Origin: Bergeyella sp.
GTDB taxonomy: Bacteria > Bacteroidota > Bacteroidia > Flavobacteriales > Weeksellaceae
Reading direction: 5' to 3'
DNA length: 64,000 nucleotides
NCBI GenBank assembly: GCA_030263285.1
Contig: SZYB01000003.1
Location: 124,001-188,000 of the forward strand
Shown: positions 21,684-29,133 of the stretch, one piece after another
Layout of the letters: each line of letters opens with the position of its first letter
Position numbering within the stretch: the first letter of the stretch is position 1
Translations under genes and position numbers: made by a program
The notes under the pieces: model-generated
Database searches by the model: none
Seen by the model: the letters and a program-made list of their open reading frames with translations, nothing else
Told to the model about the DNA's origin: nothing

Positions 21684-21691
21684 TACCTTTG
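21684..21691 (+). promoter_or_regulatory. -7 promoter element of the ilv operon leader
   Basis: TACCTTTG matches TAnnTTTG. Transcription would begin near 21695, only a few bases before the ATG of the leader peptide at 21700, so the leader peptide would be translated from a nearly leaderless end. No -33 TTTG is apparent. Confidence 0.6.
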
Positions 21692-21699
21692 TTTTGGTT

Positions 21700-21789
21700 A
21701 TGAGTCGTTTTATTCTCGTCAGCGTTTTCATTATTGTTCTTGTCGTAGGTACGGCAGAAGGGGGTGCTAGGTGTTGCATAATTGGGTAG
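21700..21789 (+). CDS. ilv operon leader peptide (attenuator)
   Basis: A 29-codon reading frame starting at ATG 21700 and ending with TAG 21787-21789. Twelve of 29 residues are the regulated amino acids: five Ile, five Val and two Leu, with an uninterrupted IIVLVV block at codons 11-16 and another Ile pair near the end. It lies between a -7 promoter element and an intrinsic terminator, directly ahead of the isoleucine/valine biosynthesis genes. This is the classical arrangement for attenuation: ribosome stalling on Ile/Val/Leu codons when charged tRNA is scarce would prevent the terminator from forming. The composition, position and hairpin are seen; the mechanism is inferred from the enterobacterial model. 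Confidence 0.82.
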   Translation: MSRFILVSVFIIVLVVGTAEGGARCCIIG

Positions 21790-21808
21790 AAGTAATAAAA
21801 ACATATAG

Positions 21809-21840
21809 AAGCCACTCTCTTTTTTAGGGGAGTGGCTTTT
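21809..21840 (+). terminator. Attenuator terminator ahead of ilvD
   Basis: AAGCCACTC (21809-21817) pairs perfectly with GAGTGGCTT (21830-21838), with further wobble pairs toward a T-rich loop, and is followed by more T. It begins 19 bp after the leader-peptide stop. An upstream GGGTG (within the end of the leader frame) could pair with CACTC of the 5' arm to form a competing antiterminator. Confidence 0.82.
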
Positions 21841-21923
21841 TGGCTTTGTTCGTTGTATAAAGGGCAAGTAAAGGTCTGTACGGTCTATACCTCAAGTTAT
21901 AAAATCAAAATACAAAAGTTAAT

Positions 21924-23612
21924 ATGTCTAAAGAGCTAAACAGATTTTCAAAAACGCTTACACAGGATCCCACACAGCCTGCTACTCAGGCAATGTATTA
22001 TGGGATAGGATTCCGTAAGGGAGATTTTGATAAAGCTCAGGTGGGAATTGCAAGTATGGGATACGATGGGAATACCTGTAATATGCATCTGAATTCTTTG
22101 GCAAAAACAGTAAAGGAGGGGGTAAAGAAAGAGGGGTTGATAGGTCTTGTGTTTCATACGATAGGGATTAGTGACGGGATGACTAACGGTACCGATGGGA
22201 TGCGTTATTCTCTTATTAGTCGGGATATCATCGCAGACAGTATAGAGGCGGTGTGTGCGGGTCAATATTATGACGGTCTTGTCACCGTTCCCGGATGCGA
22301 TAAAAATATGCCGGGTTCGCTCATCGCTATGGCCAGGCTTAACCGTCCTTCTATCATGGTATATGGGGGGAGTATTGCTCCTGGAAATTACAGAGGACAA
22401 AATCTGAATATCGTTTCTGCGTTTGAAGCATTGGGAAATAAGATAGCCGGAAAACTCAGTGACAAGGACTATGAGGGAATCATACAAAATTCTTGTCCCG
22501 GTGCGGGGGCATGCGGGGGCATGTATACTGCAAATACCATGGCTGCTGCCATAGAGGCTTTGGGCATGTCGCTTCCTTATTCATCTTCTTATCCTGCAAT
22601 TAGCCATGAAAAAAAAGAAGAATGCCTTGATGTGGGGCATCATATAAAAAAATTATTGGAGAAGGATATAAAACCTGCAGATATCATGACCCCCGAGGCA
22701 TTTGAAAATGCTCTGAAGATCGTTATTGTTTTGGGTGGAAGTACCAATGCCGTGTTACACTTTGTTGCTATTGCCAAGAGTATTGGTTACGACCTATCGA
22801 TAGATGATTTCCAGAAGATTAGTGATAAGACTCCCGTGCTTGCGGATCTAAAACCCAGTGGACAATATCTCATGCAGGATCTCTATGAAGTGGGGGGCGT
22901 GCCTGCCCTTATGAGGTATATGTTGGATGAGGGAATGTTGCACGGAGATTGTCTCACAGTCACGGGAAAAACCCTTGCAGAAAATTTGGACTCTGTAACT
23001 TCTGTCATAAAAAGGGATCAGAATATTATAAGAGATATCAAAAATCCCATTAAGAAAACGGGACATATCCGCATCATGTACGGGAATTTGGCAGAAAAAG
23101 GATCTGTGGCCAAAATTACAGGAAAAGAGGGAGATTTCTTCCGGGGCAAAGCGGTTGTGTTTGATGGGGAAAAGGAATTCATAAAAGGGATAAAAAAGGG
23201 GAAGGTAAAGGAAGGAAACGTGGTGGTAATTAAAAACGAAGGACCAAAGGGTGCGCCAGGAATGCCGGAGATGCTGAAACCCACTTCCGCCCTTATGGGG
23301 AGTGGACTGGGGAAGAATGTAGCGCTGATCACAGACGGCAGATTTTCTGGGGGTACTCACGGTTTTGTGGTGGGGCATATCACGCCGGAAGCTTTTGAGG
23401 GAGGACTTATCGGGATGGTAAAAGAAGGGGACATCATAGAGATAGATGCTGTAGAAAATACGATACATCTTTCTATTTCAGAAGAGGAGATAGGGAGGAG
23501 GAAATCAAACTTTGTGCCGCCCGATTATAAGGTGAAACACGGAATTTTGTATAAATATGCAAAATCTGTGGCCGATGCTTCCGAAGGCTGTATTACAGAT
23601 AAAATAGATTGA
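21924..23612 (+). CDS. ilvD: Dihydroxy-acid dehydratase
   Basis: An Fe-S enzyme that dehydrates 2,3-dihydroxy-3-methyl acids to the 2-keto acids of valine and isoleucine. Expected cluster-ligand cysteines lie in [17 protein letters not shown] and [12 protein letters not shown]. The C-terminal [19 protein letters not shown] motif is present. The length (562 residues) is standard. It is the first structural gene after the leader peptide and attenuator and is followed after 43 bp by ilvB. Confidence 0.97.
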
Positions 23613-23655: not shown

Positions 23656-25395
23656 ATGGAGAAACCAGTAGCCCAAGAGAAGAAAGGTTTTCAGAAAATA
23701 AAAAAGAAACAAGTGTCGGGTTCCAAAGTAGTTTTGGAGGCTTTACTCTCGGAGGAAGTTCATACGATATTTGGATATCCAGGTGGGGCCATTATGCCTA
23801 TTTATGATGCTTTGTATGATTTTGATCAGTATTTAAAGCATATACTTGTAAGACATGAGCAAGGGGCAATACACGCAGCACAGGGCTTCGCAAGAAGTTC
23901 AGGAAAGACGGGGGTGGTATTTGCTACCAGTGGTCCGGGAGCCACAAATCTGGTTACAGGTCTTGCCGATGCGATGATAGACAGTACACCTTTGGTTTGT
24001 ATTACAGGACAAGTTTACGCTTCTCTTTTGGGTACAGATGCTTTTCAGGAGACAGACATTGTAAATATTACTTCGCCGGTGACAAAGTGGAATTATCAGA
24101 TTACCGATGCAGAAGAAATTGCTGAGGTAATTGCCAGAGCGTTTTATATCGCCAATACCGGACGTAAGGGACCTGTTTTGGTAGATATCACAAAAAATGC
24201 GCAACTGCAGTTATTTGATTTTTCAGGGTATACAAGATGTCATCACATAAGAAGTTATAGACCCGAGCCCGAAATACGAAAAGAGTATATAGATCAAGCG
24301 GCAAAACTAATCAATCGGGCAAAAAAACCTTTTGCGCTTTTTGGGCAAGGGGTTATTTTGGGCAAGGCAGAAAAAGAGCTGAAAGATTTTTTAGAAAAAA
24401 CGGGTATCCCTGCTGCGGCTACTGTGATGGGGCTTAGTGCGTTGGAGACTCACCATCCGTTGTATGTAGGGATGTTAGGTATGCACGGAAATTATGCTCC
24501 CAATATAATGACCAATGAGTGTGATGTGCTTATTGCAATAGGGATGAGATTTGATGACCGGGTGACGGGACGGCTGGACAAATATGCAAAGCAGGCAAAA
24601 GTTATTCATTTGGATATAGATCCTTCGGAGGTAGATAAGAATGTAAAAACAACAGTTCCTGTGTGGGGAGATTGTAAAAAATCTCTCATTTTACTTACGG
24701 ATAAAGTAAACAAATCGAGTCACAAAACGTGGCTGGAAAAATTCAGGAATTTGGAAAAAGAAGAGATAAAAGAAGTAATAGAAGGGGAGCTGAACCCGAA
24801 AGGCGAGGTGATGAGTATGGGAGAAGTTATTAAAGTACTTAATGAACTTACAAAAGGAGATGCGATTATTGTAACCGATGTGGGGCAACACCAGATGGTG
24901 GCGTGCAGGTATGCAAAGTTTAATCATTCAAAATCAAATATCACTTCCGGAGGATTAGGGACTATGGGGTTTGGTTTGCCTGCAGCAATAGGAGCATGGT
25001 ATGGTGCGCCGGAAAGAACCGTGGTGGCTGTTGTGGGGGATGGGGGTTTTCAGATGACTCTTCAGGAGTTGGGTACCATTATGCAATTTGGTGCCAAAGT
25101 GAAAATCTTGATTCTTAATAATGAGTTTTTGGGGATGGTGCGTCAGTGGCAACAGTTGTTTCATGACAGAAGATATTCTTCGGTGGCTATTACAAGTCCG
25201 GATTTTTTGGCTTTGGCAAAGGCATACGGAATAGCTTCTCAGAGCATATCAAAAAGGGAAGATCTTTTTTCTGCCCTGAAGGTAATGCTGGACCATGAAG
25301 GTTCTTACCTGCTGGAGGTAATGGTAGGTAAGGAAAATAATGTATTTCCCATGGTGACTCAAGGGTCTTCGGTTTCAGAAATTCGTCTCAAATAA
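23656..25395 (+). CDS. ilvB: Acetolactate synthase, large catalytic subunit
   Basis: A thiamine-diphosphate enzyme that condenses pyruvate with pyruvate or 2-ketobutyrate. The activating Glu is in LVRHEQGAIHAAQG, and the ThDP motif runs from GDGGFQMTLQEL to LNNEFLGMVRQW. The FAD-binding middle domain is about residues 210-360. The length (579 residues) is usual. It pairs with the regulatory subunit encoded 18 bp downstream. Confidence 0.97.
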   Translation: MEKPVAQEKKGFQKIKKKQVSGSKVVLEALLSEEVHTIFGYPGGAIMPIYDALYDFDQYLKHILVRHEQGAIHAAQGFARSSGKTGVVFATSGPGATNLVTGLADAMIDSTPLVCITGQVYASLLGTDAFQETDIVNITSPVTKWNYQITDAEEIAEVIARAFYIANTGRKGPVLVDITKNAQLQLFDFSGYTRCHHIRSYRPEPEIRKEYIDQAAKLINRAKKPFALFGQGVILGKAEKELKDFLEKTGIPAAATVMGLSALETHHPLYVGMLGMHGNYAPNIMTNECDVLIAIGMRFDDRVTGRLDKYAKQAKVIHLDIDPSEVDKNVKTTVPVWGDCKKSLILLTDKVNKSSHKTWLEKFRNLEKEEIKEVIEGELNPKGEVMSMGEVIKVLNELTKGDAIIVTDVGQHQMVACRYAKFNHSKSNITSGGLGTMGFGLPAAIGAWYGAPERTVVAVVGDGGFQMTLQELGTIMQFGAKVKILILNNEFLGMVRQWQQLFHDRRYSSVAITSPDFLALAKAYGIASQSISKREDLFSALKVMLDHEGSYLLEVMVGKENNVFPMVTQGSSVSEIRLK

Positions 25396-26039: not shown

Positions 26040-27521
26040 ATGGCAAATTACTTCAATACACTCACATTTAGAGAGCAGCTTAAACAGCTGGGTCAGGCAG
26101 AGTTTATGGATCATTCAGAATTTTCGGATGGAGTAAGTGCTCTGAGAGGGAAAAAAATAGTGATCGTGGGATGCGGGGCGCAGGGACTTAATCAGGGACT
26201 TAATTTGAGAGATAGCGGATTGGACGTTTCATATGCTTTGAGAAAAGAGGCGATAGACAAAAAAAGAGATTCTTGGAGAAATGCCACAGAAAATAACTTT
26301 AATGCGGGTACCTATGAAGAATTGATCCCGACGGCAGATTTGGTGATCAATCTTACACCGGACAAACGGCACACTGCAGTGGTAAATGCGGTGCAACCTC
26401 TTATGAAAAAGGGGTGCACGTTTTCTTATTCTCACGGATTTAACATTGTGGAGGAGGGGATGCAAATTCGTAAGGATATTACCGTAATTATGGTAGCCCC
26501 AAAATGTCCAGGCTCTGAGGTAAGAGCAGAGTATTTGAGAGGGTTTGGGGTGCCCACACTCATAGCCGTACATCCGGAAAATGATCCCGAAGGAAAAGGC
26601 TGGGCAGAGGCAAAAGCCTATTGTGTAGGTATTGGGGGGCACAGAGCAGGGGTTCTTAAGTCTTCTTTTGTGGCAGAGGTAAAATCAGACCTTATGGGCG
26701 AACAAACTATTTTGTGTGGTCTTCTTCAGACGGGGTCTATTCTTTCTTTTGACAAAATGGTAGAAAAAGGAATAGATGCAGGATATGCTTCAAAATTGGT
26801 GCAATATGGGATTGAGGTAATTACGGAAGCCCTTAAGCATGGAGGGGTGAGTGGCATGATGGACAGGTTAAGCAATCTGGCAAAGATTAAAGCTTATGAG
26901 CTTTCTGAGGAGCTCAAAACTATTATGAGGCCTTTGTTTCAGAAGCATCAGGATGACATTATTTCGGGGCATTTTAGTAAAACCATGATGGAAGACTGGG
27001 CAAATGGAGATGCCAATCTCCTCAAGTGGAGAGCGGAAACCGGCGAAACTCCGTTTGAGAAGACCCCTGCGGGAAATAAAAAAATAAGCGAGCAAGAATA
27101 TTTTGATAATTATCTGCTTATGGTAGCCTTTATAAGAGCAGGGGTAGAGTTGGCGTTTGAGACTATGGTAGAGACAGGCATAAAAGCAGAATCGGCGTAT
27201 TACGAATCTCTTCATGAGACACCACTTATTGCCAATACCATTGCGAGAAAGAAATTGTTTGAGATGAACAGAGTAATTTCAGACACAGCAGAATACGGTT
27301 GTTATCTGTTTGATCAGGCATGTAAGCCTCTTTTGTCAGATTTTATGAAAAAAATTGATACAGAGGTGCTGGGTAAAAATTATAATGAAGGCAAAGAGGG
27401 AACCGTAGACAATATCTATTTGGTAGAAATCAATGAAAAACTCCGCAATCATCCGGTAGAAGTTGTGGGGAGGAAGTTACGCAAAGCGATGACCGCCATG
27501 AAGGCGACAAAGACGGTTTAG
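26040..27521 (+). CDS. ilvC: Ketol-acid reductoisomerase, class II
   Basis: The NADPH- and Mg-dependent enzyme for the second common step of valine and isoleucine synthesis. The Rossmann motif is [13 protein letters not shown], and [19 protein letters not shown] is the central active-site segment. The length (493 residues) and duplicated helical C-terminal region mark the long class II form found in plants and enterobacteria, not the short class I form. It is 35 bp after ilvN. Confidence 0.96.
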
Positions 27522-27651: not shown

Positions 27652-28914
27652 ATGAGGGGTAAAGCTTCTGTTCCTTCTCTGGAATCTGTACGCAAAGCGC
27701 AGGAAAATATAAAGGAAATTGTAAAGACTACCCCATTGGAAAAAAGTGATAGGCTTTCTTCAAGATATGGGGCTCAGATTTTTTTTAAGAGAGAAGATTT
27801 ACAACCCGTACGTTCTTACAAATTGAGGGGGGCTTATAACAAAATTAAAAACTTGTACAAAAATAATCTCACTTCCAGGGGGGTGGTGTGTGCCAGCGCG
27901 GGAAATCATGCTCAGGGAGTAGCACTTTCCTGTCATTATCTCAAGATAAAGGGATATATTTACATGCCTGTTACCACACCGAGGCAAAAGTTGGAACAAG
28001 TCAGGATGTTTGGTGAAGATCAGGTAGAAATTATTTTGACAGGGGATACTTTTGATGAGGCAAAAGTGGCAGCGCAAAATTTCAGTGAGACCAACGGGGT
28101 ACCGTTTATTCATCCTTTTGATGATATGCAAATCATTGAAGGGCAGGCGACACTTGCTTTGGAGATTCTCAATCAGGTCGGTAAGAACATAGATTATATC
28201 TTTGTGCCTGTGGGCGGAGGAGGGCTTATTTCTGGTGTTATTGCTGTTTTTTCGGTATTGTCACCAGAAACTAAAATCATAGGTGTAGAACCTAAAGGAG
28301 CATCTTCCATGAAAAATTCTATAGAGGTAGGCAAAAATGTTTCACTTGCGGAGATAGATAAATTTGTGGATGGGGCAGCCGTGCAAAAGGTAGGTGAGCT
28401 TACTTTTGAAATTTGTAAGGAGTATCTGGATATTTGTGCGGTGGTAGATGAGGGCAAAATATGCGAAATCATTCTGGAATTATATAACAAAGATGCGTTG
28501 GTTTTAGAGCCGGCGGGGGCGCTTTCTATTGCGGTATTAGATGATTTTAAAGTGCAGATTTTTGGGAAAAATGTAGTATGTGTCCTCAGCGGCAGTAATA
28601 ATGATATCACCCGTATGGAGGAAATAAAGGAAAGAGCAATGTTATACGGAGGACTTAAACATTATTTCAGAGTAAAATTTCCTCAGCGTCCGGGTGCACT
28701 TAAAGAATTTGTTCTACATGTTTTGGGGGAAGAAGATGATATTACTTTTTTTGAATATGCCAAAAAAAATTCCAGAGAGACCGCTTCTGCTATTGTAGGC
28801 ATAGAGCTCAGAGATCGTGGGGAGTTTCAAGGACTTTTCCAAAGAATGAAGGATAGGGGATATTTTGAGGATTATCTTAATGAAAATCCCGACGTGCTGA
28901 ATATGTTTATTTGA
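27652..28914 (+). CDS. ilvA: Threonine ammonia-lyase (threonine deaminase)
   Basis: A PLP enzyme converting threonine to 2-ketobutyrate, the committed step to isoleucine. The PLP lysine is in VRSYKLRGAYNK, the substrate loop in CASAGNHAQGVA and the phosphate-binding glycines in VGGGGLISG. A single C-terminal ACT-like domain (about residues 335-420, starting HYFRVKFPQRPGAL) indicates allosteric control and a short-form enzyme. It follows ilvC after 130 bp, a gap with no hairpin or promoter that I can support. Confidence 0.95.
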   Translation: MRGKASVPSLESVRKAQENIKEIVKTTPLEKSDRLSSRYGAQIFFKREDLQPVRSYKLRGAYNKIKNLYKNNLTSRGVVCASAGNHAQGVALSCHYLKIKGYIYMPVTTPRQKLEQVRMFGEDQVEIILTGDTFDEAKVAAQNFSETNGVPFIHPFDDMQIIEGQATLALEILNQVGKNIDYIFVPVGGGGLISGVIAVFSVLSPETKIIGVEPKGASSMKNSIEVGKNVSLAEIDKFVDGAAVQKVGELTFEICKEYLDICAVVDEGKICEIILELYNKDALVLEPAGALSIAVLDDFKVQIFGKNVVCVLSGSNNDITRMEEIKERAMLYGGLKHYFRVKFPQRPGALKEFVLHVLGEEDDITFFEYAKKNSRETASAIVGIELRDRGEFQGLFQRMKDRGYFEDYLNENPDVLNMFI

Positions 28915-29025: not shown

Positions 29026-29103
29026 ATGAAAACCCAATATATTTTTTCTCGAGGTCTTGATCTGGGAGAACGTTCTGTTACAATTGATGAACTAAACCGA
29101 TAG
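29026..29103 (+). CDS. Putative 25-codon leader reading frame ahead of purM
   Basis: An ATG at 29026 opens a 25-codon frame ending in TAG at 29101-29103, inside the start of a terminator hairpin. A weak promoter (TTG 28980-28982, TAATTTCG 28999-29006) lies just upstream. The peptide begins MKTQYIFSRG and ends DELNR; it is not enriched for one amino acid, so classical attenuation by tRNA charge is not obvious. The overlap of the stop codon with the hairpin suggests coupling of translation to termination, but the frame may also be accidental. Confidence 0.4.
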   Translation: MKTQYIFSRGLDLGERSVTIDELNR

Positions 29104-29133
29104 TCTTTTTGGGACGATCGGTTTTCTATTTTA
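29094..29133 (+). terminator. Intrinsic terminator ahead of purM
   Basis: AAACCGAT (29094-29101) pairs with ATCGGTTT (29117-29124), with an inner GTC/GAC pair and a T-rich loop, followed by TCTATTTT. It may end the ilv transcript or act as an attenuator for purM. Confidence 0.68.

Follow-up and report, generated by a model that had tools for sequence, protein, structure and literature searches.

A putative Ile/Val/Leu leader-peptide attenuator ahead of the ilvDBNCA operon of Bergeyella sp. and its counterparts in the Bacteroidota

The ilvDBNCA operon of Bergeyella sp. is preceded by a promoter element, a short reading frame rich in isoleucine, valine and leucine, and an intrinsic terminator, and this element is very probably a ribosome-mediated transcription attenuator of the operon. 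The window analysed here is a stretch of 64,000 nucleotides from contig SZYB01000003.1, in which a sequence-only reading had proposed that translation of an Ile/Val/Leu leader peptide attenuates transcription. The support for that proposal is mainly comparative, and the recurrence of the architecture in relatives, the co-variation of leader tails with terminator arms and a predicted switch placed where the regulatory codon block ends argue strongly for it. Genes of the ilv locus and its neighbours were named with NCBIfam models. All five ilv genes lie on the forward strand and score above the model cut-offs: ilvD, the first regulated gene, encoding dihydroxy-acid dehydratase (21924-23612; NF002068/TIGR00110); ilvB and ilvN, encoding the large and small subunits of acetolactate synthase (23656-25395, TIGR00118; 25414-26004, TIGR00119); ilvC, encoding a long-form ketol-acid reductoisomerase (26040-27521; NF003557); and ilvA, encoding threonine ammonia-lyase (27652-28914; TIGR02079). 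The products of the operon are isoleucine and valine. It is flanked by a divergent metG upstream and by purM-purN-purH downstream, and the ilv transcript probably ends at a terminator-like hairpin between ilvA and purM (29094-29124). Other attenuators were sought in the same genome: hisG is absent, and no leader could be recognised for a leuA-like gene in the 5.2 kb examined.

The element opens on the forward strand with TACCTTTG (21684-21691), a TAnnTTTG sequence corresponding to the Bacteroidota -7 promoter element and lying 8 nt before the leader ATG at 21700. Transcription would be expected to start at about 21695-21698, which would leave only a few nucleotides of 5' untranslated region on the leader mRNA, and the leader is probably translated from a near-leaderless end. 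Ribosomes of the Bacteroidota mostly work without Shine-Dalgarno sites. In Flavobacterium psychrophilum, transcript mapping identified TAnnTTTG as the -7 box and 5.5% of mRNAs as leaderless (PMC9723704). An element of this type also precedes the first-leader ATG in most relatives, mostly by 14-20 nt, and in one Chryseobacterium clade by 4 nt, compared with 8 nt in the window.

The leader frame, MSRFILVSVFIIVLVVGTAEGGARCCIIG (21700-21789, forward strand), has 29 codons followed by a TAG stop (21787-21789); its assignment rests on the sequence and on analogous leaders in relatives. Isoleucine, valine and leucine make up 12 of its 29 residues, and codons 11-16 (21730-21747, forward strand) form the block Ile-Ile-Val-Leu-Val-Val (IIVLVV), taken as the regulatory codon block from the sequence and the ribosome scan described below. 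The promoter element, the frame and its block are as first read from the sequence. Richness in these residues is common, however, with about 20 of the 687 short ATG frames in the window equally rich, and Ile/Val/Leu content by itself was rejected as evidence for an attenuator. An Ile/Leu/Val-rich frame followed by a terminator no more than 60 nt away is seen a single time in the window, both strands scanned; 120 dinucleotide-shuffled strands gave four weak cases (about 0.03 per strand), whose hairpins were all far weaker.

An 18-nt spacer separates the leader stop from an intrinsic terminator on the forward strand (21808-21841), whose predicted stability of -21.0 kcal/mol agrees with the earlier description of a strong terminator before the ilv genes. 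The hairpin is GC-rich, with a 14-bp stem and a UUUU loop (5' arm 21808-21821, loop 21822-21825, 3' arm 21826-21839), and the U-run spans 21837-21841. Translational attenuators, too, are built of a leader peptide followed by a hairpin; in that case the hairpin would gate ribosome access to ilvD. Such control is very unlikely here: the GC-rich hairpin carries a U-run, which recurs among relatives, and ends about 80 nt short of the ilvD AUG, which hence lies outside it. Under the preferred reading, transcription attenuation, the competing structure is a predicted antiterminator formed by CAGAAGGGGGUGCUA (21755-21769, forward strand), a segment within the leader frame (region 2), and nucleotides 21809-21824. 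This helix has 13 bp and a predicted energy of -14.6 kcal/mol, and no other part of the leader transcript pairs better with the terminator 5' arm than its leader strand. It contains the GGGTG/CACTC pairing noted previously, which is real but forms only part of the longer helix. Antiterminator and terminator are predicted to be mutually exclusive, with the position of the ribosome controlling which of them forms.

The window's own antiterminator is weakly significant. A first estimate confined to the hairpin arm gave p = 0.46 and was discarded; extending the estimate into the loop yielded the 13-bp helix, yet p was just about 0.05 by dinucleotide shuffling of the leader and 0.27 by synonymous recoding. 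In a restricted comparison the window's leader tail was not superior to non-cognate tails.

A ribosome scan, in which the RNA was covered to 12 nt past the A-site codon and the remainder folded up to the terminator loop, places the switch at the end of the codon block. With equilibrium folds and an assumed footprint, the terminator 5' arm has a pairing of 0.79-0.80 for A sites at codons 1-16, which drops to 0.38 at codon 17 and 0.16 at codon 18, so that the largest loss falls directly after codon 16, the last valine of IIVLVV. An equally large contrast was obtained with 7 of 300 dinucleotide-shuffled leaders. In equilibrium folding of the ribosome-free transcript, the terminator arm is still held in the antiterminator (pairing 0.80), and no 1:2 protector hairpin is predicted in the window leader.

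In the mechanism we propose, RNA polymerase would start a few nucleotides ahead of the leader AUG, followed by a ribosome translating the leader. When charged Ile-, Val- or Leu-tRNA is scarce, the ribosome would stall in the IIVLVV block and leave 21755-21769 free to pair with the terminator 5' arm (21809-21824); with the antiterminator formed, polymerase would continue into ilvD. When the amino acids are ample, the ribosome would move past codon 16 and mask 21755-21769, and the terminator would form, ending the transcript at about 21841. Transcript start, leader translation, termination and the response to amino acids are all predicted here from sequence. Because the terminator is more stable than the antiterminator (-21.0 versus -14.6 kcal/mol), the switch must work kinetically. 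With a protector hairpin missing from the predicted fold, a leader that is no longer translated should let polymerase read through and not cause super-termination.

Comparable leaders are widespread in the phylum. We compared the ilvD loci, with upstream DNA, of 80 named genomes (Chryseobacterium, Epilithonimonas, Pedobacter, Sphingobacterium, Niastella and others) and further relatives, searching mechanically for ATG frames of 12-50 codons with at least one third Ile/Val/Leu and a terminator within 60 nt after the frame. Leader plus terminator was found upstream of ilvD in 59 of 91 loci, the window's included (against one found downstream and three on the reverse strand), in 33 of 40 family loci of a second set and in about 17 of 40 loci of a phylum-wide set, the last from nine or so families; these loci are related to one another and the counts are not independent. 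Across the Bacteroidota, about 120 distinct leaders rich in Ile/Val/Leu, each with its terminator, precede ilvE or ilvD; in most relatives the leader stands before ilvE, itself upstream of ilvD. Examples are MNINTNIISNLIIVISQKRGGNRCV in Pedobacter, MNNTIIILVILVIIGFRW in Epilithonimonas, MYQLLSVIIIVIIIPLRL in Chryseobacterium and MHSGKKHTITGLITAIIIVVVIIIPATHGGGTCM in a Sphingobacteriales metagenome-assembled genome (L100). Four loci of family f37, outside the window's class (L163, L165, L166 and L171), carry Ile/Val leaders of another type, for example MLSIIISLVIIQVIGIPYQPGKVL, directly before ilvD, so this kind of leader extends past the window's class within the phylum.

Conservation in relatives, which the sequence-only reading had made the main check of its proposal, thus holds for the architecture and for the co-variation described below, but not for the exact leader. 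No ortholog of the window leader was found among the sampled loci, and leader sequences differ wholly between lineages except for the Ile/Leu/Val block. The two loci with the nearest ilvD (L003 and L011), which have a similar arrangement and no upstream ilvE, are without a leader. In L011 (G007), the ilvD, 79% identical to that of the window, is stop-interrupted and split, which suggests decay of branched-chain amino acid synthesis; a close ilvD is missing from about half of the family genomes sampled. In the sampled Sphingobacterium and Parapedobacter loci (for example, L037-L045, L055 and L084), no leader or terminator was found within about 3 kb upstream of ilvD, under relaxed settings too, in contrast with Pedobacter of the same order. 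Counts of substitutions by codon position, made for leaders within close groups as a test of translation, showed no excess of third-position change and give no proof that the leaders are translated. The tail of the window leader (EGGARCC) resembles Pedobacter and Sphingobacteriales tails (KRGGNRC, QGGVIC) more than those of its own family, possibly through descent, transfer or convergence; speculatively, its odd end (RCCIIG) may derive by a single-base shift from a Pedobacter GGxRCV tail, although no intermediate was found.

Several loci carry more than one leader. Two Ile/Val leader and terminator modules stand in series before ilvE or ilvD in ten loci (L035, L044, L049, L056, L119, L121, L127, L132, L149 and L160), in L035 at -1360 and -1206 from ilvD. 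The second tandem leader usually lacks its own promoter element, as seen in Chryseobacterium arrays, so that polymerase would need to get past both attenuators. In seven Pedobacter loci (L036, L064, L067, L071 and L075-L077), a long leader rich in Leu codons lies farther upstream, probably before ilvE, and between ilvE and ilvD there is a distinct Ile-rich leader that has a TAnnTTTG to itself. These double leaders possibly split leucine and isoleucine control inside one cluster.

Leader tails and terminator arms vary across lineages yet match each other. Among 26 representative leaders, cognate tail/arm duplexes have a mean energy of -13.4 kcal/mol, compared with -9.45 ± 0.53 kcal/mol for permuted pairs, and none of 20,000 permutations was as good. 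The antiterminator pairing of 96 of 123 distinct leaders is better than that of 95% of their own shuffles. In the ribosome scan, the antiterminator is lost by the stop codon in 118 of 119 leaders, and in equilibrium folding it is kept without a ribosome in 97 of 119. These observations also bear on a reading in which the frame is the gene of a functional small membrane protein and the hairpin marks where that gene ends, with a separate, unseen ilvD promoter in 21842-21923. The peptide is hydrophobic and resembles a single transmembrane segment, and small proteins before operons exist, leader genes being treated broadly in PMC4833913. We nevertheless regard this reading as highly improbable, since terminator arms co-vary with leader tails, leaders of different lineages share only the Ile/Leu/Val block, unlike a conserved protein, and the second leader of the Chryseobacterium tandem arrays has no promoter element of its own.

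The position of the predicted switch is likewise regular across leaders, as attenuation by a stalled ribosome would have it. Relative to where the Ile/Leu/Val block ends, the switch codon falls at -1 to +2 codons in 72% of 118 leaders, compared with 19 ± 4% under uniform placement. The distance from the stop is almost equally regular (r = 0.90 each for block end and stop), so block end and stop are not fully separable by this measure. A further rival would make the frame incidental, the terminator being governed instead by an RNA-binding protein, a trans-acting RNA or an as yet unknown ligand-binding RNA. It draws on the frequency of Ile/Leu/Val-rich short frames and on the marginal significance of the window's antiterminator, but against it stand the recurrence of the same type of peptide between promoter and terminator in numerous families and a helix switch that, in that 72% of leaders, comes where the codon block ends. 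An Rfam scan of the whole window also returned zero families at the gathering score, T-box and amino-acid riboswitches included. We consider this rival unlikely.

The ilvGMEDA (ilvL) and ilvBN (ivbL) operons of enteric bacteria have the classical leader-peptide attenuators. The window shares with them an Ile/Val/Leu-rich leader, an intrinsic terminator and a competing antiterminator before ilv genes. It differs in having no detectable sequence relation to them, no predicted 1:2 protector hairpin, a near-leaderless start without a Shine-Dalgarno sequence and a Bacteroidota promoter. Lacking the protector hairpin, it does not belong to the enteric three-hairpin subtype (1:2, 2:3, 3:4). Outside the enterics, leader-peptide control is described for the Corynebacterium ilvBNC leader, modelled with three hairpins in C. 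glutamicum (PMC11857589, PMC10272879), and a leucine-rich ilv attenuator for Staphylococcus aureus (PMC5794164); both belong to other phyla, and their leader sequences are unrelated to the window's. Within the phylum, mapped 5' regions of F. psychrophilum gave strong clues of leader-peptide attenuation before amino-acid operons (PMC9723704, 2021). That work has in common with ours the phylum and the inferred mechanism at amino-acid biosynthesis operons, and differs in that its main text has no named ilv operon and no comparative or switch analysis. The Bacteroid-trp RNA motif (RF01692, listed in PMC2864571), which takes its name from trp, is among the candidate cis-regulatory RNAs of Bacteroidetes and has no match in the window at the gathering threshold. 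Short frames reminiscent of leader peptides are mentioned in PMC7366714, and PMC4833913 cites the comparative survey of classical attenuation by Lopatovskaya et al. (2010). The literature searched contained no paper on ilv attenuation in Bacteroidota. It is thus fair to say, as had been said of this locus, that such control is far less described in Bacteroidetes, with the qualification that prior reports exist (PMC9723704, PMC2864571).

The novelty is modest: this kind of attenuator is already known, and what is added is how widely it occurs, together with the near-leaderless leaders and the tandem attenuators of relatives. More tentatively, these loci may be instances of a phylum-wide, fast-evolving class of minimal two-helix branched-chain attenuators on leaderless or near-leaderless mRNA, without a protector hairpin and with a switch set by the position of the codon block; the tandem modules of many Weeksellaceae would then possibly act as a two-input gate, and the default without translation would be to read through, the reverse of the enteric arrangement. 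Ile/Val/Leu leader-peptide attenuation would on this evidence be common before ilv genes in a phylum that mostly does without Shine-Dalgarno sites and in which it is barely documented. The many natural variants of one switch, near-leaderless and tandem forms included, would make the minimal needs of ribosome-polymerase coupling in Bacteroidota directly testable.
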